DNA of 64,000 nucleotides from Cytophagaceae bacterium (GTDB taxonomy: Bacteria; Bacteroidota; Bacteroidia; Flavobacteriales; Flavobacteriaceae): assembly GCA_002712765.1 (NCBI GenBank), contig PAUP01000104.1, positions 1-64,000 on the forward strand, given 5' to 3'. Position numbers and translations under genes: made by a program. Of this stretch, positions 48,129-63,904 are shown piece by piece. Position 1 is the stretch's first letter. Each line of letters opens with the position of its first letter. Below the pieces are notes generated by a model. It saw only the letters and a program-made list of their open reading frames with translations, was not told the DNA's origin and did no database searches.

Positions 48129-48203
48129 AAAACAATCCGAGGTGTTGAGTAAGGTTTTCAAAACCGTATTTGACAACGCAAACAACACATAATTTATACA
48201 ATC

Positions 48204-49451
48204 ATGGTTTTAGAAATGAAAGTCCCATCTCCGGGAGAATCAATTACCGAAGTAGAAATAGCTCAATGGCTTGTGGCCGATGGAGATTATGTAGAAAAAG
48301 ACCAAGCTATTGCTGAGGTTGATAGTGATAAGGCGACGTTAGAACTTCCTGCAGAGGCCAGTGGTACCATTACGCTTAAAGCGGAAGAAGGCGATGCCGT
48401 AGAAGTAGGAGCTGTCGTGTGTTTGATTGACACGGCCGCCGAAGCGCCAGCAAGCTCGACCTATGAAGGTGGAGATGAAGGAAGTAATTCTAATGCCGAA
48501 GAAGATGTTGCCAAGCAACAAAAGCAAGCTGCAGATGCTCCTGCAAAGGCACCGGCAGAAACACAAAAAACCTATGCTTCGGGCACGCCAAGTCCTGCGG
48601 CCAAGAAGATTCTTGATGAGAAGGGCATTAGCAGCAGTGATGTTAAAGGGAGTGGACGCGACGGAAGAATTACCAAAGATGACGCTGTACAGGCAAAACC
48701 TTCTATGGGTACACCAGGCCTAGGCAATAGAAGCGAAAGTCGTACAAAGCTTTCGATGCTACGTCGTAAAGTGGCAGAGCGTTTGGTAGAAGCCAAAAAT
48801 ACTACAGCCATGCTTACGACCTTTAATGAGGTAAACATGCAGCCTATTTTTGATATAAGAAAAGAGTACAAGGAAGCTTTCAAAGCCAAACATGGCGTAA
48901 GCCTTGGCTTTATGTCATTCTTCACTTTGGCTGTGGTACGCGCTTTAGAGCTGTACCCTTCTGTCAATAGTATGATAGACGGTAAGGAAATGCTGACTTT
49001 TGATTATAAAGATATATCCATAGCCGTATCTGGACCCAAAGGATTGATGGTACCTGTGATGCGCAATGCCGAAAACTTATCCTTTAGAGGAGTGGAAAGT
49101 GAGGTAAAGCGTCTGGCGCTTAGAGCCCGTGATGGACAGATTACAGTCGATGAAATGACTGGAGGTACTTTTACCATCTCTAATGGAGGTGTTTTTGGGT
49201 CGATGTTATCGACACCTATCATTAATCCACCACAATCAGGGATACTAGGTATGCACAATATCGTAGAGCGACCTATTGTACAAGATGGTCAAATTGTTAT
49301 TGCACCAATAATGTACGTTGCCCTGTCTTACGATCACAGAATTATCGATGGAAAAGAATCGGTTGGCTTCTTGGTTGCGGTTAAAGAGGCACTTGAAGAC
49401 CCTATCAATTTATTGATGGATGGCGATATTAAAAAAGCGCTTGAGATGTAA
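48204..49451 (+). CDS. sucB: Dihydrolipoyl succinyltransferase E2 of 2-oxoglutarate dehydrogenase
   Basis: The 415-residue protein has one lipoyl domain (1-75) with lipoylated Lys43 in DSDKATLEL, an Ala/Pro/Glu-rich linker, the peripheral subunit-binding domain (about 125-163, [13 protein letters not shown]) and a catalytic domain ending with the active-site [10 protein letters not shown]. It transfers the succinyl group to CoA. A lipoamide dehydrogenase gene is not in this window. Confidence 0.96.
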
Positions 49452-49467
49452 AGTAGTATTACAAGAA

Positions 49468-49503
49468 ATAAAAAAGCCCGTCTAAGGAGACGGGCTTTTT
49501 TTA
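49468..49503 (+). terminator. Terminator of sucA-sucB
   Basis: Stem AGCCCGTCT/AGACGGGCT with a short loop is followed by a run of seven T. Confidence 0.92.
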
Positions 49504-49583
49504 TAAGCAACTTTTTCTTGGAGTAACTTAAATATGTAAATAAACTAAGGCAGTCGTAAGACTGCCCAAGTTTACATCATCAA

Positions 49584-51977
49584 TTATTGTTTAACAACAC
49601 GTTTAACCGTTTGAGAATTGTCTGCACTAATTTGTACAAAGTAAATTCCAGCGGCTAGATTACTAAAGTCTAATGTTGTTGTAGTGCTTATATCTGCGGT
49701 CTTTGAGAAGACCACACGACCACTCACATCTACAATAGACATACTACGCACAACAGCATTACTATTGTTGCTTACCGTAATCACATCTCTAGTCGGGTTA
49801 GGATAAATCGCTATACTACTACTTAACTCTTGATCTGAAACACTTAAAGTACTATCTACCAAAATATCGAAAGTACAACTAGCCACATTTCCTGCTTCGT
49901 CTGTAGCCGTAACAGTGACCGTTGTCGTAGACCCTTCTTCTACAACTGTTCCAGCTGCTGGTTCTTGAGTAGTCACGATATTGGAAGCCGACGTACAATT
50001 ATCGGTGGCTGCGGTATAATCTTCTATGGTGTAATTACCACTGTCATCTGCACTTACAATAAGATCGCCAGGACAATCCAACTGAGGTAAATCAGTGTCT
50101 GTTACTGTCACGTTAAATGAGCAAAAAGTGGCCACTCCGTTAATATCTGCGGTAAACTCAACTAAGGTAGTCCCTACAGGGAAAGCAGAACCACTTGCTG
50201 GTCCGGCAGTTTGAGTGATTACAGGTGCCCCACATACACTTGTTGCTGTTGGAGTAGGGAAGGTAATCACTGCAGAGCAAACACCAGATCCTGTTCCTGT
50301 AAATATATCTACAGCGCAATTGGCAAAGCTTACTTCTGGAATTACAGAAACAGTAGCTGTACAACTTGAGGTGTTACCATTACTATCTGTCGCGGTAACA
50401 GTAACGGTATTGTCTCCTGCATCTGCACAAGTGAAATCTGTCATATCTAGAACAATATCGGTGGTTGGACCATCATTGTCTGGTACAGCTACTTGAGGCG
50501 TAAAAGAAACGTAGTCATTACTTACGGTCCAAGCTTGAGCGTTTCGGCCTGGCGTGGCTATCGCTTCTGTCCCGTCTGCATTTTCAAGTCCTTGCGTATG
50601 AGAACCTCCTGCAGGCTGTGCCGTAGTGTGTATCTCAATTTTATTTGATCCTTCAAAAAGGTGTACTTGTGAAGTTACCGCATCACCAGAAGGGAAATGA
50701 TCTACATTAAAAAATTCCATCACTAGAATTCTATTGGGTGCAGATCCTATGGTATTATAACGCACCAAATTAATAGCAGGTTGCCCGCCATTTCCTGGAT
50801 CCAAATCTTCCCATGCAAAAGCAATCAAATTGTTGGGGTTGTTCGTATTTGGGATAAATTGACCCGAACAACAGCCACTATTGGTGCCGGCATTAAAGGT
50901 TATAAAGCCGTTTGAAGAGATAAAGAAGTTCGAATAATCATTACCATAAAAATTGAAATCAAATCCTATTGGTAAAGATCCAGAAACTTGATCGTCTCCA
51001 AGACTAACGTTGGTGGCTCCACTAGAAATATCGATAGGAGCAAAGGTTCCGGTTTGGTCGATTTCATAACCTCCAAAAATAGTGTTTGATAAAATGTCAC
51101 TAGCGCCTATAGACGCCTCGCCATTTGCATCAAGTGTCACTGTGATATCTTGACATACTACTTCGGGGCCCGTGCCATCATTGACAGTAACGATAAAACT
51201 GCAACTAACGGTAGCGCCTGTATTTTCATCAACAGCTTCAAAAGTGTTTGTGGTAGCTCCCAAGGGGAAACTAGCGCCAGAGGCCAATCCTGCTGTTTGT
51301 GTAAACCCAGCCATCGTACAATCTCCAGACAAAGTAGGATCGGCATAGGTAACCACCGCCGATGTCATACCTGGCATGGCTGTTACCGTCATAGAAGGTG
51401 GGCAGCTTATCGCACATGGTGTCATTACTGCCGCAAAACTTTGACCTGCATTTACTGCTCCAAAAGACTGGGCTACGCCACCAACCCAAGTAAAATCACC
51501 TGAAGCACTACCAGGTCCACCAGTTAATTGGAGAGAGGTGCCTGCCGCTGTACCACTGTTTTCAGAAATACCAATATCTGTTGAAGTCATCCCTGCTGCC
51601 GGGCCATCGTTGGCGGTAAGGGTCCCTTCGTAGCTCAGAAATTGAACGACAACCCCAGTGTTATTGACCAAGGCAAAACCATCTGGCGCCCCATTTTGTA
51701 GTCCGTTAGTAGGATAGGATATACTCGTGGTTCCAAAACCATTATCTTGATCGGGTAAGGTGCCTACAAAGTTATCCATCCCGTACATGTTACCGTTGCT
51801 ACCGTTATAGCGTACAATGCTCCAGCCGCTTACATCGGTTCCAGCGGTTCCAGCAATTTCAATGGCTTCACCGCTGTCTGTGCCACTGTTGTCATAATGT
51901 ATTTCGTTAACGAAGACCGTTTGCGCCGATAGCACTGCCGTCATTAAAAACATACATAGTAAAGTAATTTTTTTCAT
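49584..51977 (-). CDS. Secreted T9SS cargo with HYR repeats
   Basis: The 797-residue protein has a signal peptide (to LSAQ, about residue 18), an N-terminal lamin-tail-like domain (VFVNEIHYDNSGTDSGEAIEIAG), several HYR-type beta repeats with the DxxxPxxxCP pattern, a nidogen-like patch (FYGNDYSNFFISSNGFITFN) and a C-terminal type A sorting domain (SIAIYPNPTRDVITV...GIYFVQI...KRVVKQ). It resembles adhesins or surface-layer proteins. The open frame from 52007 is trimmed to ATG 51977 because that places the basic start next to the signal helix. Confidence 0.82.
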   Translation of the reverse strand: MKKITLLCMFLMTAVLSAQTVFVNEIHYDNSGTDSGEAIEIAGTAGTDVSGWSIVRYNGSNGNMYGMDNFVGTLPDQDNGFGTTSISYPTNGLQNGAPDGFALVNNTGVVVQFLSYEGTLTANDGPAAGMTSTDIGISENSGTAAGTSLQLTGGPGSASGDFTWVGGVAQSFGAVNAGQSFAAVMTPCAISCPPSMTVTAMPGMTSAVVTYADPTLSGDCTMAGFTQTAGLASGASFPLGATTNTFEAVDENTGATVSCSFIVTVNDGTGPEVVCQDITVTLDANGEASIGASDILSNTIFGGYEIDQTGTFAPIDISSGATNVSLGDDQVSGSLPIGFDFNFYGNDYSNFFISSNGFITFNAGTNSGCCSGQFIPNTNNPNNLIAFAWEDLDPGNGGQPAINLVRYNTIGSAPNRILVMEFFNVDHFPSGDAVTSQVHLFEGSNKIEIHTTAQPAGGSHTQGLENADGTEAIATPGRNAQAWTVSNDYVSFTPQVAVPDNDGPTTDIVLDMTDFTCADAGDNTVTVTATDSNGNTSSCTATVSVIPEVSFANCAVDIFTGTGSGVCSAVITFPTPTATSVCGAPVITQTAGPASGSAFPVGTTLVEFTADINGVATFCSFNVTVTDTDLPQLDCPGDLIVSADDSGNYTIEDYTAATDNCTSASNIVTTQEPAAGTVVEEGSTTTVTVTATDEAGNVASCTFDILVDSTLSVSDQELSSSIAIYPNPTRDVITVSNNSNAVVRSMSIVDVSGRVVFSKTADISTTTTLDFSNLAAGIYFVQISADNSQTVKRVVKQ

Positions 51978-52117
51978 AGATTGAATATTTGAGTTAATGG
52001 AATACAATAATACAATTCCACATCTTATTTAAGATTAAGATATGGTTATCTTAGGAGTCAATTAAAGGTAGTTATTTTTAGAATAATGCCTCTTCGCATT
52101 ATCTGATAGAACAACTA

Positions 52118-52555
52118 TTATTTGAGATAGAGGCAATTGTATTGATAGTCAATAATACCCTTGCCACTATTTAATAGATCGGCACCAAGAATGCCGTGCA
52201 CGGCCTTGGCATTGTGATTTTCTAAAGCCGTATTGACACTACTTAGATCAAATAAAACCACATTGAGCTTATCGAGTTGCCATTTTCCAATTTGCAACCG
52301 ATTGTTTTGTGATAATTTGGTAGGCATGTCAATGGCTCCAGCACCAGCTGCCAATATTTCACTTTCTTCAGAGAGTAGCCCAAAATGAGCAGCTGCATCA
52401 AAGCCCACACAAGAACTAGAAGCACCAGTGTCTAAAATAAAAGAGCCTTCTATACCGTTGAGTTTGGCTTTGAGTTCTAGGTGATTGGTTTGTGTTGGAA
52501 ATAGACGTATTCTAGTGTAGCCTTTGTCGAGCAAAAATTCGCGAAGTGATGCCAT
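52118..52555 (-). CDS. Retropepsin-like aspartyl protease
   Basis: The 145-residue protein has the aspartic protease signature L-D-T-G-A-S-S (DTG at 42-44) and the second hydrophobic motif HGILGADLL, as in single-domain retropepsin-like proteases that act as dimers. No signal peptide is visible, so it is probably cytoplasmic. Its first 44 bp overlap the end of the CHAT gene, suggesting translational coupling and shared expression. Its target is unknown; the neighbours (CHAT protease, sigma and anti-sigma) are candidates. Confidence 0.8.
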   Translation of the reverse strand: MASLREFLLDKGYTRIRLFPTQTNHLELKAKLNGIEGSFILDTGASSSCVGFDAAAHFGLLSEESEILAAGAGAIDMPTKLSQNNRLQIGKWQLDKLNVVLFDLSSVNTALENHNAKAVHGILGADLLNSGKGIIDYQYNCLYLK

Positions 52556-55187
52556 ATTTTCTTACTATCAAAAGGCCTAAAAATACTATTAATAATCCAA
52601 GTGCCAGACCCCACAACCAGAAGTTCTTAGATACGACAGGATCTACCGTACCATAGTACACAAAAGCAGCCCAGTAATAGGGCGACTTTTTGGCATTAGA
52701 AACGGATTTATCTTTGAGATATATCCTTTTTGCAAGAGAGAGACTTTTGTTGCGAGAATTGTTTTGTTTTAGTGTTTTGTAAAAGCTACTCATGAGTTGG
52801 GTGGTGGCCTGATCGTTAACCTGCCATAGGGAGAATACAATATTCTTACTACCCGAATACTGGAATGCTCTGGCCAAGCTTTGGGCTCCTTCGCCTGTTA
52901 CAATCCTGCCTATTCCAGTTTCACAAGCACTCAAAACGACTAGATCAGGTTGCCATACATTTCCATATAACTGAGTGACAGGGAGAATACTGTCATAGAA
53001 GGAAATCGCAGGGGGTTCTGTAAAGCTACCTCCACTGGCGTGGGTAGATAGGTGTATGATTTGGTGGGTATCCGCTTTCGCGAAAGCGGCCACAACCGAA
53101 GCCTCCTCTTTAAGTAAGAGTACGCTGGGGAACTGTTTTTCTAGCGAGGCAGCTTCTTGTAAGGAATAGGGAAGTGCCCTGTTACTGCCCTCAAATACGG
53201 GAAAGACACCTAGCGCAGTCGCAGTAGAAGGCATAGGGTTGTCGTGGGTGAGATAAAGTTGAGCCGAAAGTGCAAAAGAGATATCGGTACGATTACTCAA
53301 CCAAGGCATTTGATCAAATTGAAATCCTTTATGAGCCGAGGTGAGCAAAGCGTCAAAAGGCACAAATTGCAAAAATGAATCGGGTAGTATCACCAGTGAT
53401 TTGTCTAAAGGGATGTGTAAATTTTGAAACAGCGCAAAGGCAGCATTAGCATATTTCTGCGGATCTCGGTTAATGGTGTTTGCATCGGTAAAATAGTCTA
53501 GAAATTGAGTGATGCTTTTTAAAAATTTGGTATTGGCCTGAGCGCTTGAGGTGAGTTTGACAAATTGGGTCTCATTAGCATCAATGACAAATTGAAAACT
53601 CGTGTTTTTACCTAAAAAATAACTCAACACCCGATGTTGCTGTACGGCTGTCTTTGCTTTGACCTTTTCGAGCTCCCATAGGGTGTCTTTCTGCTCATCG
53701 GGATACCTCTTGGCCAAGGCCTGTTGGGTGGCTGTAATTATAAATCGATTGCTTTCAATACTATCGAGTAAGGCGAGGTAGGGGGGTGTTTCGGTTTCAA
53801 GTGCTGAGCGTTTTTGCTGTAGTTCAGTATACCATTGTGTTTGTTTTTTTTCTAAGGCATTTAAGGTACTCACCAGTGGTTCATCTTGGAGTCTTTGTCG
53901 CTTTTCTTTATCGATATATCCTTGGGTAGCTAAGAGCGCTTGGGTTGACTGGGACATGGCAAAAGCCCTGTTTAAAAGTTCGGGACTGGGCTGTGATTGG
54001 TAAATAGAATAAGCGAGTTCAAGAAAAGCTTCGGCTCGTTTTTTTTGAGCTGTTTGTAATCCCATTTTTGATTGTTGACTGGACAGATTGTTGCTCATGA
54101 GTCTACTTACTGTAGTAGCGTGCTCATATAAGATCAAAGCGTCTTTTTCTCTGTTACCTCTCTCAAAGATGCGGGCGTGAAGGTCAAGAGCGTCCATTAA
54201 GGTGTTTTCGGCATATAGGAGGGGGCGGGGCGGTGGAGTGCCCTTAGCTCTTTGATCCACATTCATAGCTGGTATAAGCTTTTGATAGGCTGCTTCAATT
54301 TGGGAAAGGGCTGCCTTAGTTTGCTCTTGCCTAAATCGAATGTTGGCCATGGCTAGATGTAATTTGGCTTGTGCTCTAGTATCAACTATAGGTTGGGCTG
54401 TTTCTATAGAAAGCGCGTAGGCCAAAGTGTCATAAGCCTGATCGTAGGCGCCTATTTGTGCGAGAACCTGGGCTTGTAAACTATACACACTAGGTTGATT
54501 TGGATCTATAGCAATAGATGCGGCAGCTACAGTCAAACCCTCTTCGATACGCTGGGCCGCCACAAGACTGCTAGCCAGATTGGTAAGTAAAAAGGTGTTT
54601 TTTGGGTATTGCATAACACCATCACGTAGTATTTGAATGGCTTTTTCGGGATTTCCAAAATGTTGATAGACATTAGCCAGATTAGATATACCTCCGGCTA
54701 CAGCTGCATTGTTTTTGGCTTGCTGAGCAAGACTGAGATAGCGTTGATGAATCTCTATAGCTTCGGTGTAGGCGTTGGTTTGGGTATAGAGGTTGCCCAA
54801 GGGCTTTAGACAGGATTCTAAGATGTCAAACCCGCTCAACCCATGTTCTCTATAGATAAACCAGGCTTGGGTATAAAAGTCGATGGCCTTTGTTAAGTTT
54901 CCTAGTTGTCTACTGTGATACCCCAATTGGGAAAGACCAATAACCTTGGCCAAAAATGCATCATTGGTGGTGGGGTTTTTAGAAGAAAGCCAATTAGAAA
55001 AACTTGCGGTGGCCTTTACATCGGGCGCCAGTAGATAGGTGTCAAGCTCCTTGTATATTTGATTGGCGAGCAAAGATTGTTGGGTGTTTGTACTAGCTTC
55101 TCTCGATTGCCCTAAGACTATAATAGATGGTGTGATGACCAGTATAAACAAGAGTTTTTTGATCAAAAGGGAGGCTTTAGCGAGCAT
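52512..55187 (-). CDS. Exported TPR-CHAT protease with C-terminal membrane anchor
   Basis: The 891-residue protein has a signal peptide (to VLGQ, about residue 27), TPR repeats (about 70-430; YTQAWFIYREHGL, AIEIHQRYLSLAQQA, YDQAYDTLAYAL), a CHAT domain (about 590-850) with catalytic His716 (IIHLSTHASGG) and Cys755 (VLSACETGIGR), and a C-terminal membrane helix (about 855-877) followed by basic residues. CHAT domains are caspase-like cysteine proteases. The topology places the protease in the periplasm. It follows the PKD/barrel gene and precedes the aspartyl protease. One palindrome copy is inside. Confidence 0.88.
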   Translation of the reverse strand: MLAKASLLIKKLLFILVITPSIIVLGQSREASTNTQQSLLANQIYKELDTYLLAPDVKATASFSNWLSSKNPTTNDAFLAKVIGLSQLGYHSRQLGNLTKAIDFYTQAWFIYREHGLSGFDILESCLKPLGNLYTQTNAYTEAIEIHQRYLSLAQQAKNNAAVAGGISNLANVYQHFGNPEKAIQILRDGVMQYPKNTFLLTNLASSLVAAQRIEEGLTVAAASIAIDPNQPSVYSLQAQVLAQIGAYDQAYDTLAYALSIETAQPIVDTRAQAKLHLAMANIRFRQEQTKAALSQIEAAYQKLIPAMNVDQRAKGTPPPRPLLYAENTLMDALDLHARIFERGNREKDALILYEHATTVSRLMSNNLSSQQSKMGLQTAQKKRAEAFLELAYSIYQSQPSPELLNRAFAMSQSTQALLATQGYIDKEKRQRLQDEPLVSTLNALEKKQTQWYTELQQKRSALETETPPYLALLDSIESNRFIITATQQALAKRYPDEQKDTLWELEKVKAKTAVQQHRVLSYFLGKNTSFQFVIDANETQFVKLTSSAQANTKFLKSITQFLDYFTDANTINRDPQKYANAAFALFQNLHIPLDKSLVILPDSFLQFVPFDALLTSAHKGFQFDQMPWLSNRTDISFALSAQLYLTHDNPMPSTATALGVFPVFEGSNRALPYSLQEAASLEKQFPSVLLLKEEASVVAAFAKADTHQIIHLSTHASGGSFTEPPAISFYDSILPVTQLYGNVWQPDLVVLSACETGIGRIVTGEGAQSLARAFQYSGSKNIVFSLWQVNDQATTQLMSSFYKTLKQNNSRNKSLSLAKRIYLKDKSVSNAKKSPYYWAAFVYYGTVDPVVSKNFWLWGLALGLLIVFLGLLIVRKYGITSRIFARQRLH
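53074..53087. repeat. GCTTTCGCGAAAGC palindrome, copy 11
   Basis: Perfect copy, extended to 18 bp (53072-53089), inside the CHAT gene, read as A-F-A-K-A. Confidence 0.95.
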
Positions 55188-55202
55188 AGCGGCCGTTATC
55201 GA

Positions 55203-57230
55203 TTAAAATTTCCAAATTCCGTACACCTGGATTTGGGAAGTGGGCGCGTCAAAATTAAGTACATATCTGATGCCAGCACTAGGTCCAATACGAACACCTC
55301 CTATATTAGCACCTATGAACACACCAGTTTGAAAGTTGCCAAACCCCTTGCTGCATTCGGTGCGTTGCAGGGTATCTTGTGAATCATCGCTTACCTCTCC
55401 AACACCAGGTATGATTTGAGAAAAACTACCTCTGGTCTCCACATCACAATTGCTATTGAGATCGGCCTTGAGCTGTATGCCACCTCCAAAAGCCAAAAAA
55501 TTGTTCAGATTATAACGATAGGAGATGGGCACCAGATAGGCGGTAATCGACTTTTGCTTGGCTTCTTCTCTAAAGCGCGTGATGCTCTCAATACCAATAT
55601 CGTTAATAGCTCTTGTTTCAAAATTACGCAATGTCTCAAAGGAGGCTGCCGAGAAGAATAATTCGGCCTGAAAATACACGCGATATGATTTAAAGGGAGA
55701 CAGGGTTATCCCTGCAAAATATTCTGAACTATTCTCTCGATTGGGAGTAAAAATGGTACCAGCTTTGGCTCCTATAGATATTCCTGGGGTAAAACGTGTC
55801 GTACTATAATTGGTATATATGGGAGGGTTTTTGTCAAAGTAAATTGCCGTTCGGTTACGTGTTTTGATCTTGTGAAAATCAGAACCAAACTTCATAGAAT
55901 ACTTGACAAAGCCCTTGGTTGAGTCTCGCTCTTCGACATTTTTTTGTTCTGAACCTGGGAGATAGATCTTCTTGAAGGTGAAAATGAGTTTGTCTTTTTT
56001 AAGAATGGTGTCCAGACAAGAGTAATTGACTTCCCGATCTTTTGGACAGATGCGACACTTGGGATACATGTCTACCACTTCAAGGGTTTTGCGGTCAAAC
56101 ATTTCTGGGGTATCTACCTCTAATTTAATCGTATTTGCAGGGCCTTCACCATTATTTTGAAACCGCACCTTAAATTTAAGTCTTTTAAAACGAGCCAATC
56201 TATAATTTAGGATGGTCCCGTTTGAAGACATTTTATTGGGGTCGTGAGAGGTGACAATTTCTAATTCGGTGTCTTTGACAGAGTGATTGTCATAATTTTT
56301 GTCTGGCACATATATGGTTCTCAAAGTCACAATGGCACTAGTGTCTTTGAGCATTTCTGGTGTGGTTTTTAAAGTGTGAAAGATATTGCGTTCTTCTCCG
56401 GGTTGCATCTGGTCAAACTCGATCACTTGACTATTGCGGTAGAGGGCCTTGGTTTGTTCGAGGGTAAGCGGAAGGTTGATGCGCTTGGTACTATCTTGCT
56501 GTTGGATACCCCTAGGCTGTATTATCATAGGTGAGGTAGAGGCCAAATCACCATAGCCGTAATTTTGATCAGACCGTGAGGCGATAAGTGATTCATCTAC
56601 TAGGGTTTCTCCGTGATGCATACGGGTATCACTTATTTCAAAATTGTCATTTTTAAACTGTCTGTCATTATAAAACAGATACAATTTGCCGCTGCTGGTG
56701 TAGTCTGTGGTGTTTTTATAACTAGTGATTAAAACCATTTCTTGATCTGGGACAGGCTCTCTGTTGTGTTGCACGACCAAGTCGGTATCATTGGTAAAGG
56801 GTGATGGCGCTTTCGCGAAAGCGGAAGTATCCAGACTCGCTTCTTCATCTGAAGCCGAAGCACCTATGACTACCTCCTTAGGTCTGCTCTCTGGCGGTTT
56901 TCCATTGTCATAATTGTTGGTACTCCAGAGTCTGACCTTATAGGTGCCAGGCTTTTTATAGACGTGAGAAGGTTTTTTGTCAAAACTATAGCTACCATCT
57001 CCTAATTCCCAATAATAGGTGTAAAAAGCCCGTGGTGCTCCTGCAATTTGATTGAGCGGAGGCATGGTGGCTCCAAAATTAATGCGATACCCATTGGCAT
57101 CGTAATATATAGGAGCCCTTCTAGTGGTAGTGTCTTGAACTATAGACGGCGGGATATCTTGTGCCATAAGATTCCCAAGTGCTACTATGGCCAACGCGAT
57201 ATAGATAAATAAATTTCTCATAGTTGGCAT
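55203..57230 (-). CDS. PKD-domain protein with C-terminal outer-membrane barrel
   Basis: The 675-residue product has a signal peptide (to LMAQ, about residue 24), a PKD domain (about 68-125; YYWELGDGSYSFDKKPSHVYKKPGTYKVRLW), a central beta-sandwich region with a Cys-rich patch (CRICPKDREVNYSC), and a C-terminal part with barrel-like strands ending in GIWKF. It probably sits in the outer membrane with its N-terminal part in the periplasm or outside. It starts 1 bp after the lipoprotein gene stop and is 15 bp before the CHAT gene. Alternative ATG at 57221. One palindrome copy is inside. Confidence 0.75.
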   Translation of the reverse strand: MPTMRNLFIYIALAIVALGNLMAQDIPPSIVQDTTTRRAPIYYDANGYRINFGATMPPLNQIAGAPRAFYTYYWELGDGSYSFDKKPSHVYKKPGTYKVRLWSTNNYDNGKPPESRPKEVVIGASASDEEASLDTSAFAKAPSPFTNDTDLVVQHNREPVPDQEMVLITSYKNTTDYTSSGKLYLFYNDRQFKNDNFEISDTRMHHGETLVDESLIASRSDQNYGYGDLASTSPMIIQPRGIQQQDSTKRINLPLTLEQTKALYRNSQVIEFDQMQPGEERNIFHTLKTTPEMLKDTSAIVTLRTIYVPDKNYDNHSVKDTELEIVTSHDPNKMSSNGTILNYRLARFKRLKFKVRFQNNGEGPANTIKLEVDTPEMFDRKTLEVVDMYPKCRICPKDREVNYSCLDTILKKDKLIFTFKKIYLPGSEQKNVEERDSTKGFVKYSMKFGSDFHKIKTRNRTAIYFDKNPPIYTNYSTTRFTPGISIGAKAGTIFTPNRENSSEYFAGITLSPFKSYRVYFQAELFFSAASFETLRNFETRAINDIGIESITRFREEAKQKSITAYLVPISYRYNLNNFLAFGGGIQLKADLNSNCDVETRGSFSQIIPGVGEVSDDSQDTLQRTECSKGFGNFQTGVFIGANIGGVRIGPSAGIRYVLNFDAPTSQIQVYGIWKF
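56809..56822. repeat. GCTTTCGCGAAAGC palindrome, copy 12
   Basis: Perfect copy inside the PKD/barrel gene, read as A-F-A-K-A. Confidence 0.95.
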
Positions 57231-57231
57231 A

Positions 57232-58230
57232 TTATTGAAGACTATTGACCTGAGTGATAAAGCTAGTTTCGGTAGCCGATAAGACTTCTGGTGTAAAACC
57301 TATTTGATCTCTACCAATACTCGAGGTTTGCCAGGCATATTGATACATGCCTTGCTGATGGGTCACCAAAATATACGAGGCTGGTGTGTCTATAGGAATT
57401 TGCCCGTAGGTTTCGCTAAAAACATTCAAACTCGTATCGTAACGATCAAATAGTGCAACTGCTATACTTTCTGAATTATATAGTAAAAAGGTGTCACTAT
57501 TGCTGCCGTTAAAGGCAGTAGGCGCCTTGTTGTAGACTATTGTTCTCTCGGTGTCGGTAGGGTTATAGCGGCTCAGGCTTACCCAGCCCAATTCAAACAC
57601 CGAAGTTTGATATCCTGTGATTAGGGTGCCGTCTGGATTGTCTATAATTGAAGGTTCGACCCCAGCATCTGGATTGATCTCCCACAGTACCTTACATTCC
57701 AACTCTTGACAGCTCAAAGAGTTGAATTGAAAGAGTAGTAATTCTTCATTGTTTGAAGGGGTAAATACGTTTATCGGATTGAGTAAAGTGATGTCTTGTC
57801 CCGGTGCTACGAGATTGATATAGTATATTCCTTCGCTTAATAGGGGCTCTACAATACCGGTGGTGCTTAAGCCATTGGTAGATAGTTGACAGGCTATAAT
57901 AGCACCAGGAGAGTACATTTCTATCAATTCTAAGGTAACGGTTACATCAATAGGTTCTCCGTTCTGATCGACGATACTTTGAGCGGGAACAATAACCTGA
58001 GTGTTTTGCTCGCCTCTAAAAACACCGCCTTCAAAGGCTGGAAATTCAAAACGTTGCACCTTGGGCAGTCTACAATCTAGTAAATTATCTCCATAGCTTT
58101 CGGCCGGTAATGGTGTGGTACTATTGACAATTTCGACAAGACCTTCGTCACAGTCATTATCTTCAGAACAAGAGGGGAGCAGTAGAAGAATGACCATCAA
58201 TAACCAGGTTAAATGATGTATTCTTTTCAT
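57232..58230 (-). CDS. Lipoprotein, paralogue of the product at 58396
   Basis: The 332-residue product has a lipobox (LLPSC, Cys21). The part around residues 65-115 (GGVFRGEQNTQVIVPAQSIVDQNGEPIDVTVTLELIEMYSPGAII) resembles a ZU5-like beta domain by its GG...G-x-IP pattern. Later blocks (LSTNG, EGIYYIN, DRYDTSLNVFSETYGQIPI) match the neighbouring lipoprotein closely. Function unknown. It is translated just before the PKD/barrel and CHAT genes, so it is likely part of their operon. Confidence 0.72.
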   Translation of the reverse strand: MKRIHHLTWLLMVILLLLPSCSEDNDCDEGLVEIVNSTTPLPAESYGDNLLDCRLPKVQRFEFPAFEGGVFRGEQNTQVIVPAQSIVDQNGEPIDVTVTLELIEMYSPGAIIACQLSTNGLSTTGIVEPLLSEGIYYINLVAPGQDITLLNPINVFTPSNNEELLLFQFNSLSCQELECKVLWEINPDAGVEPSIIDNPDGTLITGYQTSVFELGWVSLSRYNPTDTERTIVYNKAPTAFNGSNSDTFLLYNSESIAVALFDRYDTSLNVFSETYGQIPIDTPASYILVTHQQGMYQYAWQTSSIGRDQIGFTPEVLSATETSFITQVNSLQ

Positions 58231-58395
58231 AATGGTTGGTTGTTTGAAAAGGAAGCCAATCGTTTTAAATCCAGATGATAGCCCCCAATGTATCGTATTA
58301 AATGTAAGTAAAATAAATGAGCTTGTAAAAGTAGAAACCCTGGCGTCCTTTCAGATACCAGAGTTCTACCCAACAAACCTAAACAAACATATGTT

Positions 58396-59439
58396 TTAAG
58401 GTAAAGCGTTGATCAATGCCGTAATGCCGGCTTCAGAGGTTACTTGTGTAGTCCCGATTACTTCGGTATGACCATCTACAATTGTAGCTGCCTGAATGGC
58501 GTATACATAATCTCCGTTTTGTACAGACACAAAGATGAAATGTACTTGTTGTCCTATTGGCATTTGACCATAGTGCTCAGAAAATACTTCTAAGGTACTG
58601 TCATAGGTGTCAAAATAAGCTAGAGCAGTAGGTTCACCATCATATGATACGTATACAGCACTATTGCTATCATCAAATCCTTCTGGCACATCTACTAAAA
58701 CCATGGTCTTTGGTCCTGCATAAGAATACCATCTGTCTAAATTGGTCCATCCAAACCCTGTTAAAGGAGCTACATAAGAAGAAGTCCAAGTACCATCAGG
58801 GTTTTGCATTTCTCCTCCATTTACTACGGCATCTTCTTCTTCTTCCCATACAACCTCACAATCGATGCGATCACAATTTTCGGCTCTAAAAATGGTCATT
58901 TCTGGATCAAAGCTATTTGTAGGTGCGTTCAGTTCAAAAGCTGCTGCAGGGACGAGTTGTTGCCCACCTTGAGTAGCATTGATGAAGAATTCTCCTCCAG
59001 ATATAATGGTCGAGATATCTCCATTTGTTTGTTTTCCATTGGTAGGAAGTTGTTTTTTCAACATGTCGGCACGAGTATAGACTTCAAGAAGCTGAATATC
59101 TACTGGCCCCGTTACGGGTTCTCCACCAATAAATTCAAAACCGTTGGCAGGAAATGTAATTTGGGTGCCTTGATCTCCGATCACTATACCGCCAGTAGTT
59201 GCGTCTACAGTAAAGGTTTGAAGGTCGTTGTTTCTATCGTCTTGGATGCTGTTTTCAAATTCTAATCCGCTAAGGATTTCTGTTCCTGTCTCAAAATCTG
59301 GATCGAGGTCCGAATCGTCTACCGATTCACAGCTGGTAAGAAGTATCAATGATGCTGCTGCTCCTAATACTAATTTTTTAAAAGTGTTAGCGATCGTACT
59401 GTTGTTCTGAAGCGCTATTGTGTTGTTTTGTGTTTTCAT
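58396..59439 (-). CDS. Lipoprotein, paralogue of the product at 57232
   Basis: The 347-residue protein has an N-terminal signal with lipobox (LLTSC, Cys37) after an unusually long polar lead. Shared blocks with the downstream paralogue include GGIVIGDQGTQITFPANGF, LLEVYTRADMLKKQLPTNGKQTNGD, GEFFIN and FDTYDSTLEVFSEHYGQMPIG. The pair is probably a tandem duplication. ZU5-like similarity is by eye only. It is divergent from the sigma factor gene. Confidence 0.72.
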   Translation of the reverse strand: MKTQNNTIALQNNSTIANTFKKLVLGAAASLILLTSCESVDDSDLDPDFETGTEILSGLEFENSIQDDRNNDLQTFTVDATTGGIVIGDQGTQITFPANGFEFIGGEPVTGPVDIQLLEVYTRADMLKKQLPTNGKQTNGDISTIISGGEFFINATQGGQQLVPAAAFELNAPTNSFDPEMTIFRAENCDRIDCEVVWEEEEDAVVNGGEMQNPDGTWTSSYVAPLTGFGWTNLDRWYSYAGPKTMVLVDVPEGFDDSNSAVYVSYDGEPTALAYFDTYDSTLEVFSEHYGQMPIGQQVHFIFVSVQNGDYVYAIQAATIVDGHTEVIGTTQVTSEAGITALINALP

Positions 59440-59551
59440 AATAGTTGTATTAAAATGTTTGTTTGATTACAACCCTATATCACAAGCAGTTCTTTTTTGT
59501 TACCCCTAATTCTAAATCTTTTTTATACATTAGTTGTAAATAGCTGATAAA

Positions 59552-60145
59552 ATGGGGGATAACAGCATACATCCAGATCAAAAATATGTGGATGCACTAC
59601 TTTCTAATGATCATAAAATCATAGACGAGATCTATCTGAGGTTTGCGCCTAAGGTCATTGGGTATGTCAAAAAAAATAGCGGTACCGAATCTCAGGCACG
59701 AGATATTGTACAGGAAGGCATCCTTACTATATATGACCAAGCCAAAGTGAAGGGCCTGACCTTGAGTTGCCCTTTTGACGCTTACTTTTTTCTAATATGT
59801 AAACGAAAGTGGTTAAACACACTAAAAAAAGCTGGCCCAAATAGGGTAACAATAAATGAAGAGATAACATCTAGAGATGCAGAGTTGCAGGCTCAAGCCG
59901 ATCAAACCAGTCAGTTTGAAGCCCAAAGCAATTTGTTTCACACAAAATTAGCTGCTTTGGGAGAAAAGTGTCGCCAAATCATTAAACTTTCTTTCCGTAT
60001 AAAATCTATGGAAAAAGTAGCCCAACAATTAGGAGTCACTTATGCTTATGCCCGCAAAAAGAAATCACTCTGCATAGGAAAACTAACCGAGATGATACAA
60101 AACTCACGAGAGTATCATATGCTAAAAATGGAGCATGATGGATGA
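59552..60145 (+). CDS. ECF-family RNA polymerase sigma factor
   Basis: The 197-residue protein has sigma region 2 (about 23-95; IYLRFAPKVIGYVKKNSGTESQARDIVQEGILTIYDQ) and a region 4 helix-turn-helix (about 145-185; EKCRQIIKLSFRIKSMEKVAQQLGVTYAYARKKKSLCIGKL). It should direct RNA polymerase to a small set of promoters. It overlaps the next gene by 11 bp, the usual pattern of a sigma with its anti-sigma. It is divergent from the lipoprotein-CHAT operon, its probable target. Confidence 0.88.
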   Translation: MGDNSIHPDQKYVDALLSNDHKIIDEIYLRFAPKVIGYVKKNSGTESQARDIVQEGILTIYDQAKVKGLTLSCPFDAYFFLICKRKWLNTLKKAGPNRVTINEEITSRDAELQAQADQTSQFEAQSNLFHTKLAALGEKCRQIIKLSFRIKSMEKVAQQLGVTYAYARKKKSLCIGKLTEMIQNSREYHMLKMEHDG

Positions 60146-60875
60146 GAAAACGATGTTATTATTTGACGATTATTTGCAAGGCGCCTTAAGTGCCCCTCAG
60201 CAAAAAGATTTAGAACAGCGCCTGGCCAATGAGCCCGAACTGGCCGATGCCTTTGTCATATTTAGAGAATTAAACGGGCACTTGAGTCATCACTACTCAG
60301 AAGAACGAGCTTCTTTTGCGGCTCAGCTTAGACTAAAAGCGCAGGAGCATGCCCCTACCCAAGAAGCAGAGACCAAGAAAACCACTAAGGTAATACGGTT
60401 GCGACCCTTACAGTATTTTGTAGCTGCGAGTATCGTTTTATTATTTGGCGCTATTCTTTGGAGCCAGCTAGCGGTGCCCACCTATAGCGATTATCAAATA
60501 GAACAACCTATAAGTCTTAGCATACGTTCTGAGGGAGAGATTGCTTTCGCGAAAGCGGAAGAAGCCTTTAACACCGGTGATTATGAAATGGCTGTACTAT
60601 TTTTTAATAGCATACTTTCCAACACCCCTGACAATGTTGAGGTTCAATATTATAAAGCCATCGCCCTAACCCAGCAAGACAATTATGAAGAGGCCGACAA
60701 TCTATACAAAGCGCTTTGGGAAGGGAGTTCGGTTTATAAATACAAGGCGCTTTGGCGTCATGCCTTGAGCAAATTAAAACAAAAGGATAGGGCCTCTGCT
60801 AAGGCTTTACTTGAACAAATACCGCCCGAGGCCGAAGACTATGAGCAAGCCCAAGATTTGTTAGATAAGTTGTAA
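60135..60875 (+). CDS. Membrane anti-sigma-like protein with periplasmic TPR domain
   Basis: The 246-residue product has an N-terminal cytoplasmic segment (DDYLQGALSAPQQKDLEQRLANEPELADAF, about 11-40) that resembles the helical sigma-binding region of anti-sigma factors but lacks the zinc Cys-His motif. One membrane helix (about 94-112) follows, then a periplasmic TPR domain (about 135-240). The overlap with the sigma gene supports an anti-sigma role. The periplasmic TPRs could sense the TPR-CHAT protein or be cleaved by it; this is inference. ATG 60138 is an alternative start. One palindrome copy is inside. Confidence 0.75.
   Translation: MMDEKTMLLFDDYLQGALSAPQQKDLEQRLANEPELADAFVIFRELNGHLSHHYSEERASFAAQLRLKAQEHAPTQEAETKKTTKVIRLRPLQYFVAASIVLLFGAILWSQLAVPTYSDYQIEQPISLSIRSEGEIAFAKAEEAFNTGDYEMAVLFFNSILSNTPDNVEVQYYKAIALTQQDNYEEADNLYKALWEGSSVYKYKALWRHALSKLKQKDRASAKALLEQIPPEAEDYEQAQDLLDKL
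60543..60556. repeat. GCTTTCGCGAAAGC palindrome, copy 13
   Basis: Perfect copy inside the anti-sigma-like gene, read as A-F-A-K-A. Confidence 0.95.
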
Positions 60876-60906
60876 GACTTGCGTATGTTACTCTGATAAA
60901 TCCTGC

Positions 60907-60914
60907 TATTTTTG
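60907..60914 (+). promoter_or_regulatory. -7 box TATTTTTG immediately before tatD
   Basis: The TAnnTTTG box ends only 4 nt before the ATG at 60919. With initiation normally about 5-8 nt after the box, the transcript would begin at or next to the start codon, so tatD may be leaderless. Confidence 0.5.
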
Positions 60915-60918
60915 CGGC

Positions 60919-61686
60919 ATGCAATTTACAGATACACATACCCACTTATACAGCGAAGCTTTTGACGAAGATAGAGCTGCAATGATAGCAAGGGCTAATG
61001 CAGCAGGAGTTACCCAATTTTACATCCCTGCGATAGATGCTTCTTACACCCAGCGCATGTATGATTTGGAAGCGGCATACCCAGACCAGATGCATTTGAT
61101 GGCTGGTTTGCATCCTACTCATGTCAAAGAAGATTATCAAGAAGAACTGGCACACGTCGCCCAGCAGCTCTCCACTCGTAGCTTTTGCGCTATTGGCGAA
61201 ATTGGTATTGATTTGTACTGGGATAAAACAACCTTAGGGATACAGCAAGAAGCCTTTAAAGCACAAATAAGACTAGCCAAAAAATATAAGTTACCTATAG
61301 TAATCCATTGCAGAGATGCCTTTGACGCTGTTTTTGAAGTGCTCGAATCAGAAAAGGCGCCCAATTTGTTTGGCATTTTTCATTGTTTTACTGGTACTAA
61401 GGAGCAGGCATTACGTGCGATTGGATATCAAATGAAATTGGGAATAGGTGGGGTGGTCACCTTTAAAAATGGAAAAATAGATCAATTTCTTCACGAGATA
61501 CCCCTAGAACATATCGTTTTGGAGACAGATGCTCCTTATTTGAGTCCGGTACCGTTTCGCGGTAAGCGCAACGAAAGCAGTTACCTCACTTATGTTGCCG
61601 AAAAATTGGCGACTATATATGAGCTACCTCTGTCAGAAATTGCAACAATTACCTCAAAAAATGCCCAATCAGTTTTTGGAGGATAG
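60919..61686 (+). CDS. TatD-family metal-dependent hydrolase
   Basis: The 255-residue TIM-barrel enzyme has the metal motifs DTHTHLY (His7, His9), GEIGIDLYW, IHCRDA, FHCFTGT and LETDAPYLSP. TatD proteins are 3'-5' exonucleases acting on DNA or RNA, with a role in oxidative DNA damage or RNA turnover. The gene lies 43 bp after the anti-sigma-like gene but has its own promoter box. Confidence 0.9.
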   Translation: MQFTDTHTHLYSEAFDEDRAAMIARANAAGVTQFYIPAIDASYTQRMYDLEAAYPDQMHLMAGLHPTHVKEDYQEELAHVAQQLSTRSFCAIGEIGIDLYWDKTTLGIQQEAFKAQIRLAKKYKLPIVIHCRDAFDAVFEVLESEKAPNLFGIFHCFTGTKEQALRAIGYQMKLGIGGVVTFKNGKIDQFLHEIPLEHIVLETDAPYLSPVPFRGKRNESSYLTYVAEKLATIYELPLSEIATITSKNAQSVFGG

Positions 61687-61760
61687 TGGTTTTGCATTCT
61701 AACCAATGGTCACCTTATATTTATTTTGTTCTTTTGTCCTAAATAACCCAACCCCAGAAT

Positions 61761-62888
61761 TTGTCCAAATTTGACCACATAAGACCTTATCTTGACACCG
61801 AGGTGCACGACGCCTTAAAGACGCATGCAAAACACCCTATGTTTAAGGTTTTGCTTCAGTTTACCTTTCCTGACAAATCGGTGCGGGAGATCAAGGAAAT
61901 TATTGAAGGTTGTCATTCGATACGCGATTTTCAAACTAAGGTTATTTATCACTCGGTTCAAAATTTATTGGCCAAGAGTTCTGAAGGTTTTTCGACCTCG
62001 GGTTTTGATGCCTTAGAAAAACAGCAGCCGTATCTTTTTATTTCCAATCATCGCGATATTGTCTTAGACACTTCACTACTTAATGTGGCCCTGTTGGATC
62101 ATGGCCTAATTAGCACGGCCTCTGCTATTGGAGATAATCTTGTACAAAAAGATTTTTTGATGGCTTTGTCAAAACTCAATCGCAATTTTTTAGTGCTCCG
62201 TGGTCAATCGCCTCGTCAAATGCTACAATCGTCAAAGACGCTGTCTGAGTATATGAAATACTTATTGTCTCAAAACCGATCGGTATGGGTGGCCCAACGT
62301 GAGGGACGTACCAAAGATGGACACGATTTTACTCAGCAAGGGGTTTTAAAGATGATTACCATGGCCAAAGGATCGCTAACACTAATGGAATATATGAAGC
62401 AGTTGCACATAGCTCCAGTGGCCATCTCTTATGAATATGATCCTACCGATATTCTGAAAATCCCAGAATTGGTAGCCAAGGAAGAAAATTTACCTTATGT
62501 CAAAACACCCAATGAAGATTTTAATAGTATCTTAAAGGGTGCCTTAGGCAACAAAAAGCATATCCATATCTCGTGTAGTGAGCTTGATCCAGAACTATTT
62601 GATCGTATCGATCAAGAAGAGCAAAGCGATAATGACAAATTACAGCGTGTTGCCGTAGAAATTGATAAGGCGATTTACAAAAATTACAAATTGTGGCCTT
62701 CTAATTATATCGCCTATGATTTGTATTACAAGACCGATCGTTTTTCCGATAAATACGATGTCAAAGAAAAGAGACAATTTGAGCGGCGTTTAGAGCGACG
62801 TGTTGATACAGCTATCGCTCTAGAAGTAGAGAGCTTTTTGCGCATGTATGCCACCCCAGTAAGCAACCGTCTAGAAACACAGTCATGA
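61761..62888 (+). CDS. 1-acylglycerol-3-phosphate acyltransferase-like protein
   Basis: The 375-residue protein has an acyltransferase block FISNHRDIVLD, where the His97 to Asp103 spacing is H-x5-D instead of the common H-x4-D, and a second block (LNRNFLVLRG, WVAQREGRTKDG). It should transfer acyl chains to lysophosphatidate or a similar acceptor at the membrane face. Translation appears to start at TTG 61761. Its stop overlaps the asparaginase ATG by 4 bp. Confidence 0.82.
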   Translation: MSKFDHIRPYLDTEVHDALKTHAKHPMFKVLLQFTFPDKSVREIKEIIEGCHSIRDFQTKVIYHSVQNLLAKSSEGFSTSGFDALEKQQPYLFISNHRDIVLDTSLLNVALLDHGLISTASAIGDNLVQKDFLMALSKLNRNFLVLRGQSPRQMLQSSKTLSEYMKYLLSQNRSVWVAQREGRTKDGHDFTQQGVLKMITMAKGSLTLMEYMKQLHIAPVAISYEYDPTDILKIPELVAKEENLPYVKTPNEDFNSILKGALGNKKHIHISCSELDPELFDRIDQEEQSDNDKLQRVAVEIDKAIYKNYKLWPSNYIAYDLYYKTDRFSDKYDVKEKRQFERRLERRVDTAIALEVESFLRMYATPVSNRLETQS

Positions 62889-63904
62889 CCCCAAATATTT
62901 TGCTCATATATACAGGTGGTACCATAGGCATGGTCAAAGATTATGACACTGGAGCCTTGCGATCCTTCAATTTTGATAATCTTTTACTCAAAATTCCTGA
63001 ATTACGTCATTTGGACTGTGAGATAAGTGCTGTTTCTTTTGAAACCCCTTTGGATTCTTCAAATATGAATCCCGAATTCTGGACTCAAATTTGTGAATTT
63101 ATACAAGAGGGATACGATCGCTATGATGGCTTTGTGGTATTACATGGCAGTGATACGATGAGTTATACGGCTTCGGGCTTGAGTTTTATGCTCGAAAACC
63201 TTGCCAAGCCTGTTATATTTACGGGTTCTCAACTTCCTATTGGTGATTTGCGTACCGATGCCAAAGAAAATTTAATTACCGCGATTCAACTCGCAGGGCT
63301 TAGAAAGCGCAATAGACCTATGATACAGGAGGTGGCACTTTATTTTGAATACAAATTGTACCGCGCCAATCGCACGACCAAAATAAGCGCCGAACAATTT
63401 GAAGCCTTCGATTCTCCCAATTATTTGCCATTACTAACCTCTGGAGTACATCTTCAAATAAATGAGGAGGCGCTACTTAGACCTGCCAAACGCGTGTTTA
63501 AGGTACATACCAATTTGGTCAAAGATATTATGCTCATTAAATTGTTCCCAGGGATGTGTCAAAATGTATTTGAGCATATGTTGTCCCTAGATGGTCTGAA
63601 AGGTGTGGTGTTAGAAACCTATGGCTCTGGTAATGCGACCACTGCGCCTTGGTTTATTAGCGCTTTAAAAGATGCGATCAAAAGAGGTATTTCTATAGTC
63701 AATATCACCCAATGCAATACGGGTAGTGTTAAAATGGGTAATTATGAAACCAGTGTTGAGCTAAAGAAAATTGGAATTATTAATGGAGGTAATATGACAC
63801 CCGAAGCCGCCGTTGCAAAAATGATGTATTTATTAGGGCAACAATTGGGTCCAAAAGCATTTAAAACGGTCTATGAGACCTCATTGAGAGGTGAGTTGTC
63901 TTAA
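62885..63904 (+). CDS. ansA: Type I L-asparaginase
   Basis: The 339-residue cytoplasmic enzyme converts asparagine to aspartate and ammonia. The two catalytic Thr motifs are visible: IYTGGTIGM (residues 9-16) and LHGSDTMSYTA (about 86-96), plus TGSQLPIGDLRTDAKENL. No signal peptide, fitting the type I form. It is coupled to the acyltransferase gene by an ATGA overlap. Confidence 0.92.
   Translation: MTPNILLIYTGGTIGMVKDYDTGALRSFNFDNLLLKIPELRHLDCEISAVSFETPLDSSNMNPEFWTQICEFIQEGYDRYDGFVVLHGSDTMSYTASGLSFMLENLAKPVIFTGSQLPIGDLRTDAKENLITAIQLAGLRKRNRPMIQEVALYFEYKLYRANRTTKISAEQFEAFDSPNYLPLLTSGVHLQINEEALLRPAKRVFKVHTNLVKDIMLIKLFPGMCQNVFEHMLSLDGLKGVVLETYGSGNATTAPWFISALKDAIKRGISIVNITQCNTGSVKMGNYETSVELKKIGIINGGNMTPEAAVAKMMYLLGQQLGPKAFKTVYETSLRGELS

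Follow-up and report, generated by a model that had tools for sequence, protein, structure and literature searches.

The 64,000-nucleotide stretch analysed here, hereafter the window (contig PAUP01000104.1, positions 1 to 64,000 of the forward strand, GenBank assembly GCA_002712765.1, from a Cytophagaceae bacterium placed by GTDB in the Flavobacteriaceae), contains at positions 52118-60875 a conserved six-gene module carried by marine bacteria. It encodes an extracytoplasmic function (ECF) sigma factor, a membrane anti-sigma factor with TPRs, ZU5-like lipoproteins (one or two per module), a PKD/DUF7849 protein and a TPR-CHAT protein; a seventh gene at this place, for an aspartyl protease, is a bystander. 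The module is probably a self-amplifying envelope-signalling system in which the CHAT protease cuts the anti-sigma factor after Arg131 and the freed sigma factor transcribes the operon from a promoter of the form GGTAACAA-N14-TGATATA. In this model, the cytoplasmic domain of the anti-sigma factor would hold the sigma factor. A surface signal may enter through the ZU5-like lipoproteins and the PKD/barrel protein and regulate the membrane-tethered, separase-like CHAT protein, which would become active in the periplasm. Several indirect lines of evidence strongly suggest that CHAT cuts the anti-sigma factor, at Arg131-Ser132 in a short linker ahead of the TPR domain. The general intramembrane protease RseP would probably remove the stump, and the released sigma factor would then transcribe the lipoprotein-barrel-CHAT operon, feeding back on itself. 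Activation is the expected outcome of cleavage; in principle, cleavage could also be constitutive and halted by the signal.

All seven open reading frames (ORFs) are intact at their annotated coordinates, and a divergent promoter separates the sigma side from the lipoprotein side, as the initial annotation of the window had described:

59552..60145, + strand: ECF sigma factor, 197 amino acids (TIGR02937, 6.1e-18; Sigma70_r2, 8e-6)
60135..60875, + strand: membrane anti-sigma factor, 246 amino acids (TPR_19, 1.5e-8), with a predicted cytoplasmic N-terminal domain, transmembrane stretch (about 96-114), periplasmic linker and TPR domain
60525..60527, + strand: Arg131 codon, in the linker between transmembrane stretch and TPR domain; this residue is the candidate P1 of the CHAT cut, and Ser132 follows
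59476..59504, - strand: candidate target promoter GGTAACAA-N14-TGATATA, directed toward lip1-lip2-barrel-CHAT
58396..59439, - strand: lip1, lipoprotein; in the predicted model, a ZU5-like domain (68-239) and a C-terminal beta-sandwich domain (242-334)
57232..58230, - strand: lip2, paralogous lipoprotein, matched by the lip1 profile at 2.8e-56, with cross-matches in relatives
55203..57230, - strand: PKD/DUF7619/DUF7849 protein, 675 amino acids (PKD_4, 8e-10; DUF7619, 2e-17; C-terminal DUF7849, 1.8e-60)
52512..55187, - strand: TPR-CHAT protease, 891 amino acids (CHAT, 1.4e-41, plus TPR matches), with H716, C755 and the S1-pocket candidate D792
52812..52814, - strand: Asp792 codon; in alignments this residue corresponds to the separase Arg-binding Asp, and it co-varies with the anti-sigma P1 residue
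52118..52555, - strand: retropepsin-like aspartyl protease, a neighbouring core gene (Asp_protease_2, 1.8e-12)

The protein assignments made earlier hold in their main lines. The sigma factor gene overlaps the anti-sigma gene by 11 bases, and the anti-sigma factor has a single transmembrane stretch by hydropathy. The NCBIfam 'antisigma' model matches its residues 11-112 at 7.4e-7, under the model's own cut-off; on the basis of this match, the overlapping genes and the hydropathy profile, it resembles the single-pass, ECF-sigma-linked anti-sigma factors controlled by regulated intramembrane proteolysis. The TPR-CHAT protein has a signal-like N-terminal stretch, a C-terminal transmembrane segment near 857-875 and a His-Cys dyad in the CHAT domain after the TPRs, as in separase-like clan CD enzymes, and is a predicted peptidase. 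The small aspartyl protease, whose gene begins inside the 3' end of the CHAT gene and whose retropepsin-like domain is confirmed, has no hydrophobic segment. Judged by hydropathy, therefore, CHAT and the TPR domain of the anti-sigma factor should be periplasmic, in line with the periplasm-facing CHAT proposed earlier, and the aspartyl protease cytoplasmic. The two lipoproteins are indeed paralogues, with about 30% identity in relatives, and a lipobox expression matches 73 of 84 lip1 homologues and 10 of 17 lip2 homologues. The PKD domain of the 675-amino-acid protein is likewise upheld, and its DUF7849 domain is a putative outer-membrane anchor or barrel; a PHROGs scan of this protein gave one weak match only, unnamed.

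The module was traced in 99 genomes, comprising the window's own genome (G000) and 98 relatives. The barrel protein occurs in ten of them, and close sigma factor orthologues are confined to the same ten (E 6e-58 or better; next best 5e-25). A full-length CHAT orthologue is present in nine of these module genomes, and in the tenth (G006) a partial copy lies at a contig end; the lipoprotein, searched for in these ten, is present in all. A wider scan using one genome per species gave 323 barrel-protein relatives, the best 80 of which were kept: 73 of these are assigned to the Flavobacteriaceae and 59 fall in 19 named genera, so that co-occurrence does extend beyond the species. The 62 well-flanked loci hold the sigma factor in 61 cases, the anti-sigma factor in 61, CHAT in 62, at least one lipoprotein in 60 and the aspartyl protease in 48, and the CHAT gene follows the barrel gene in 74/74 loci with flank. 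Co-occurrence across genera thus far exceeds chance for six of the seven families that the initial annotation had grouped together; the aspartyl protease is independent of the module. H716, C755 and D792 are retained in 75/75 module CHATs. A keyword literature search of limited depth turned up no report of the module.

Two loci hold parts of the module. In G004 (L040:9377-10775), a CHAT domain without TPRs, an aspartyl protease and an anti-sigma fragment represent a decayed module, and these remnants at the module's place look like the result of deletion. In G020 (L192), the sigma and anti-sigma genes, R-G site included, persist next to the aspartyl protease gene, although the lipoproteins, barrel protein and CHAT are gone from the place.

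The association of CHAT with TPR anti-sigma factors is reciprocal. Within the 99 genomes, 53 of 65 full-size TPR anti-sigma genes lie within 9 kb (start to start) of a listed CHAT, and 53 of 61 listed CHATs have a TPR anti-sigma factor nearby. Of 77 rows, 12 were removed as fragments or as frames of a different size, leaving the 65; the count of 53 is a minimum, given that the anti-sigma factor of G015:C140, scored as lacking a CHAT, does have one (L193). Among sampled genomes of the family, 69 of 149 carry a CHAT of the same kind (E 1e-30). In class-level samples picked by CHAT alone, a sigma/anti-sigma pair is found within 6 kb in 14/20 and 11/20 loci, compared with 0/19 control stretches, all but one set of which were drawn from the same genomes (Fisher 3e-6 for the first sample versus controls, relatedness ignored). 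For the first sample, the top listed CHAT was taken from each of 18 genomes and two additional copies were included; four of its 20 loci are module orthologues (L132, L133, L137, L138); the second consisted of further CHAT copies from the same genomes. One control (L181) was left out: it holds a CHAT, again with a sigma/anti-sigma pair. The sigma and anti-sigma profiles used for samples and controls were extended with matches from both alike. The genes of CHAT and anti-sigma factor may be divergent, convergent or co-directional; thus, their link is not that of one inherited operon.

The anti-sigma factors of the module share the motif 'Y.D....IsL..R[GS]' in the linker from the helix to the TPR domain. 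Arg131 is present in 71/71 of them; N146 and A153, inside the TPR domain, are equally invariant. In anti-sigma factors beside other CHATs, a similar position holds Arg or, in some cases, Lys, Met or Gln, and the next residue is usually small; the linker of L163 has no site-like residue. The pattern [RK][GSNA] occurs in 48 of 57 paired linkers, whereas shuffling yields 24 on average and at most 34 in 1000 rounds; this comparison is only a guide because the linker sequences are related. In separases, the P1 Arg of the substrate is bound by an invariant Asp, Asp2151 or Asp2070, according to the consulted part of PMC10317155. D792 of the module CHAT (in 'WQVND') was taken as its counterpart from profile alignment and spacing rather than from structure overlay: it lies 37 residues past the catalytic Cys, compared with 41 in human separase (C2029 to Asp2070).

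Residue 792 follows the candidate P1 residue. In a first set of CHATs, Asp occupies position 792 in 50/50 rows with Arg as P1, and Glu occupies it in 7/7 rows with Met, 4/6 with Lys and 1/1 with Gln; ten of the Arg rows are module CHATs, and three of these ten, without an anti-sigma factor in view (L057, L085, L089), are absent from the pooled table. The resulting Asp/Glu rule, written down beforehand, held in 10/10 uninspected pairs (nine Arg/Asp, one Lys/Glu). Two loci of that unseen set were not scored: L249, with the pair ten genes away, no site and Asp, and L247, with an anti-sigma factor lacking TPRs and Asp. The 67 pooled pairs comprise 52 Arg/Asp, 7 Met/Glu, 5 Lys/Glu, 2 Lys/Asp and 1 Gln/Glu; that is, Asp792 accompanies Arg in 52/52 pairs, and Glu is found in 13/15 pairs with Met, Lys or Gln. 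The module-type entries in this table are the window, L052, L065 and five module-like loci (L132, L133, L137, L138, L236). Three loci without a single clear P1 residue (L146, L158, L163) were dropped; all have Asp792. With thresholds of 60% (Arg set) and 80% (other sets), just 2 of 574 columns, 792 and 728 (Ile to Leu), switch to a common residue in both non-Arg clades. The Fisher value over the 67 pairs, 4e-12, ignores relatedness and is not quotable as significance. H716 and C755 are also invariant in 64/64 mixed CHATs of the Arg, Met, Lys and Gln types (the Gln row by its printed line). Taken with the invariant linker Arg and the reciprocal neighbourhood, this co-variation makes cleavage of the anti-sigma factor by CHAT, already proposed in the initial annotation, the best explanation; the candidate site is the linker Arg131 and not, as was then thought, the TPR domain.

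Seven loci (L193, L208, L209, L210, L212, L215, L149) form a clade in which the sigma, anti-sigma and CHAT genes make up a co-directional operon, the pocket position holds Glu and the linker reads 'PDPGLPTTM[SG]', with variant forms in L149 and L210. Anti-sigma factors with this linker also occur in L194 and L199, with no CHAT in the stretches read.

Sixty-four divergent regions were compared for promoter sequences. GGTAAC is found in 63 of them, GGTAAC-N15-17-TGATAT in 49 and the strict form, GGTAACAA-N14-TGATATA, in 29; the strict form was chosen after inspection of these regions. Among the 99 genomes it has 17 sites, every one in a module genome (10/10 such genomes, 0 in the other 89). The relaxed pattern GGTAAC-N15-17-TGATATA matches 23 times in the ten module genomes, compared with 6 for the reversed control, and 22 times versus 37 in the others. 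In G011, a gene is inserted in the divergent region and the promoter site stays with lip1; in G038, two lipoprotein genes have one promoter site each. An off-module strict site in G010 lies between tandem ORFs of 614 and 596 amino acids, both with a weak match to the lipoprotein profile (4e-4 and 6e-4). Such a pattern of sites would be expected of a sigma-specific promoter with positive feedback. The confinement of the promoter to module genomes in the searched set favours the earlier suggestion that the divergent operon belongs to the sigma regulon; recognition by the sigma factor itself is presumed. The window's own genome has a second strict site, at G000:C15:26183-26211.

Several results weigh against a CHAT-cut, self-amplifying module. 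Twelve of the 65 anti-sigma factors have no listed CHAT nearby (at least one of them, L193, does have one, and some lie at contig ends), and three orphans (L192, L194, L199) retain a site-like linker; two others (L196, L197) have none. Outside the class, the sigma/anti-sigma pair is near CHAT in only 4/20 loci. Within the module, CHAT is less conserved (30-42%) than the barrel protein (44-73%). The P1 labels of the first set were assigned by eye, before residue 792 was read, and an earlier separase model, in the part of PMC4626109 available, placed the S1 acid elsewhere. On a quick tree of CHAT domains, built without column 792, this residue changes only twice, both times where P1 leaves Arg; with two switches, an independent-pair test cannot reach significance. 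A third P1 change, in the Lys clade L046/L216, keeps Asp792 (in the L046 pair, four genes lie between CHAT and anti-sigma factor), and the pairing of Met with Glu is without explanation. As to the promoter, the pattern was derived from the module, where 11 of the 17 strict sites lie, so that the test rests on the six sites elsewhere; over all 99 genomes, the relaxed pattern has 45 matches versus 43 for its reversed control. Lastly, a search for M50 proteases found none in the genome of the window, which is 78% complete; the presence of an RseP-type M50 protease in 11/12 genomes, on the other hand, fits the predicted RseP step.

Three other readings of the locus were considered. CHAT could be an output of the system that cuts other envelope or invader proteins, for defence, surface remodelling or death, with the anti-sigma factor being cleaved by a DegS/RseP-type path and the Arg having a structural role. 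The position of the CHAT gene under the module promoter would fit this, as would the surface-protein look of the barrel protein and lipoproteins, the second strict site of G010 beside its weakly lipoprotein-like ORFs, and the subtilase or beta-lactamase-fold gene held by two of the scanned CHAT loci. We nevertheless regard it as unlikely, since it leaves unexplained both the joint switching of the linker residue and the protease pocket residue and the association of CHAT with TPR anti-sigma factors across three gene orders. A non-proteolytic role, in which TPR-TPR binding lets CHAT regulate the anti-sigma factor, or the anti-sigma factor inhibit CHAT, with no cutting, is more improbable still: both proteins do have TPR domains, and N146 and A153 of the anti-sigma factor are as invariant as Arg131, but the His-Cys dyad is invariant in module and mixed CHATs alike (75/75 and 64/64) and the co-variation falls at the expected substrate pocket.

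The least probable reading, to which we give hardly any credence, is the full cascade of the initial annotation, in which CHAT cleaves the TPR domain, after which the aspartyl protease in the cytoplasm finishes the release of the sigma factor. The predicted location of this protease and its overlap with the CHAT gene agree with such a role. However, its gene is present in 62/99 genomes irrespective of the module, including 59 of the 60 genomes of the family, most of which are module-less. In the three empty sites that were read (L204-L206) it directly adjoins tatD; in 14/62 loci no copy was found next to the module, and in G075 it is kept on another contig. Presence with or without the module and adjacency to tatD at empty sites mark it as an old neighbour; it was rejected as a module part, and by its distribution is a bystander and not part of the system. 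As for the protease itself, this retropepsin-like DTGAS enzyme is near-universal and well conserved in the family; it weakly matched the PADLOC candidate PDC-M08B, and PDC-M08 is named nowhere in the literature searched. Its tatD neighbour gave a QatD match in PADLOC.

The dedicated CHAT/anti-sigma pair favoured here has several known relatives. A predicted structural model of the CHAT protein (predicted local distance difference test score, pLDDT, 87; predicted template modelling score, pTM, 0.84) has as its best match Csx29 (8eex, Z 29.1, root-mean-square deviation (rmsd) 8.4, 552 residues aligned), followed by separase (5u1s, Z 25.2, rmsd 4.1, 439 aligned; 5fby, Z 23.6) and, at Z of about 20, the transmembrane anti-sigma factor DdvA (8rw5, 8rot). 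A profile of the subfamily's CHAT domain matched nothing among solved structures up to E 1; a broader CHAT profile matched Csx29 entries and DdvA. In PADLOC, the CHAT protein gave a weak BovA match and a generic TPR match.

The comparison with Craspase drawn in the initial annotation is apt, Csx29 being the closest structure. In this type III-E CRISPR system, comprising the TPR-CHAT protein Csx29, Csx30 and CASP-sigma, the substrate inhibits a sigma factor, and according to the sections consulted of PMC10028731 the protease is RNA-activated via Cas7-11 and cuts Csx30 in a loop (427-429) with no essential residue. As in Craspase, a TPR-CHAT protein is paired in the module with a sigma factor inhibitor, cleavage here being predicted. 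In contrast, the predicted location of both the protease and its site is the periplasm, and the candidate site is an invariant Arg; a Ser of the TPR-CHAT in 8d9f aligns with Asp792. No Cas-like protein was found with NCBIfam and PADLOC among the 13 window proteins at 45384-63904, a scan that left aside CRISPR arrays and the rest of the window, and neither Cas7-11 nor Csx30 is encoded with the TPR-CHAT protein among these 13. In the literature searched, Craspase is the only TPR-CHAT system proven on a sigma inhibitor (PMC10028731, as far as its consulted sections go). Separase likewise joins a TPR-like region to a caspase-like protease with Arg preference and an S1 Asp, but is eukaryotic, with known substrates that include the cohesin subunit Scc1 (PMC10317155, same part). 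DdvA, according to the accessible portion of PMC4374960, is an anti-sigma factor carrying a TPR-CHAT-like region, which also matches CHAT in sequence; there, anti-sigma factor and CHAT share one polypeptide, whereas the module has two separate ORFs and an identifiable candidate site. In EACC2-caspase systems, a caspase-fold peptidase is similarly encoded with an ECF sigma factor and a TPR protein (DUF1822), but the architecture is that of a conflict system, and the available part of PMC8195603 mentions no membrane anti-sigma factor or cleavage site. ECF54 sigma factor genes lie near CHAT and subtilase genes, and control by proteolysis has been proposed for them, as here; unlike the module, which has a TPR anti-sigma factor beside the sigma factor in 61/62 loci, ECF54 is proposed in the accessible text of PMC8999054 to work without an anti-sigma factor. 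A subtilase with a lipoprotein-like N-terminus, recalling the ECF54 neighbourhoods described there, is encoded at L134:11775-13076 in a Lys-type sigma/anti-sigma/CHAT locus.

The predicted pathway also parallels that of RseA, DegS and RseP, with a membrane anti-sigma factor, a predicted cut on the periplasmic side and presumably RseP next. In RseA-DegS-RseP regulated intramembrane proteolysis, RseP follows as the intramembrane protease. DegS, which cleaves the membrane anti-sigma factor RseA on the periplasmic side (PMC10028731, in its consulted sections), is a PDZ serine protease, whereas the module would use as its site-1 protease a dedicated caspase-like enzyme whose gene accompanies that of its substrate. 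Regulated anti-sigma cleavage and the proximity of CHAT or caspase genes to ECF sigma genes are thus already known (the latter from the portions consulted of PMC8999054 and PMC8195603). New, as a prediction from sequence, is a periplasmic TPR-CHAT/anti-sigma version with a matched candidate site and pocket and its own candidate promoter.

The AlphaFold model of lip1 (pLDDT 85) has a ZU5-like beta-sandwich fold followed by a second beta-sandwich. In VIA, four ankyrin ZU5 entries came top (Z 11.4 to 10.3; ankyrin-B 4d8o, Z 11.4, rmsd 3.3, 132 aligned), with GAIN domains at Z 8.5-9.2 and UNC5b at Z 7.7, a value of little meaning alone. The ZU5 match came only from VIA: the 50 best Foldseek rows for this model hold no ZU5 entry, and the best of them, glucanotransferases, were discarded as unrelated and of low TM-score. 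The lip1 profile matched nothing, lip1 has no Pfam match, and the ZU5 autoproteolysis motif is lacking in nearly all of the 84 lip1 homologues (H[FL][ST] in 2/84, CxH in 0/84). ZU5 domains were reported earlier in bacterial surface proteins and toxins, according to the part of PMC3482391 available.

More broadly, there is perhaps an even chance that Bacteroidota use the TPR-CHAT class as dedicated site-1 proteases of envelope sigma factors, matched between S1 and P1 (Asp with Arg; Glu with Lys, Gln or Met) and equipped with subfamily-specific sensors, Craspase being an intracellular offshoot. In the present subfamily, the sensor set would then be the ZU5 lipoproteins and the PKD barrel protein. 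If CHAT does cut the anti-sigma factor, a caspase-like site-1 protease would join envelope signalling, the CRISPR Craspase would gain a non-CRISPR setting, and regulators would be suggested for many Bacteroidota ECF sigma factors. To our knowledge, few substrates of bacterial CHAT proteases are known; the analysis offers a candidate substrate, scissile bond, specificity-setting pocket residue and promoter. It also brings together, within a single bacterial operon, a caspase-like protease and a ZU5-like domain, a type of pairing familiar from animal PIDD.

Other TPR-CHAT loci of the same genus (L042:2451-4655, L044:6472-9167 and L042:12390-12632) lie beside small peptides that, by eye, look like peptides with GG-type leaders, and L042 also encodes a VKOR/thioredoxin protein that weakly matches C39 peptidase; these loci look as if they were tied to secreted peptides. 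A beta-lactamase-fold protein of 406 amino acids is encoded between lip1 and the barrel gene at L069:8670-9890, and other Aquimarina loci have ORFs of 406-409 amino acids at the equivalent place. The seven genes are flanked by odhA/odhB (2-oxoglutarate dehydrogenase) on one side and tatD on the other, with one gene for a type IX secretion system (T9SS)-sorted protein before odhA/odhB. A T9SS-sorted HYR-domain protein is encoded downstream of the module at window positions 49584-52007, on the same strand, and likewise in G011 (L032).

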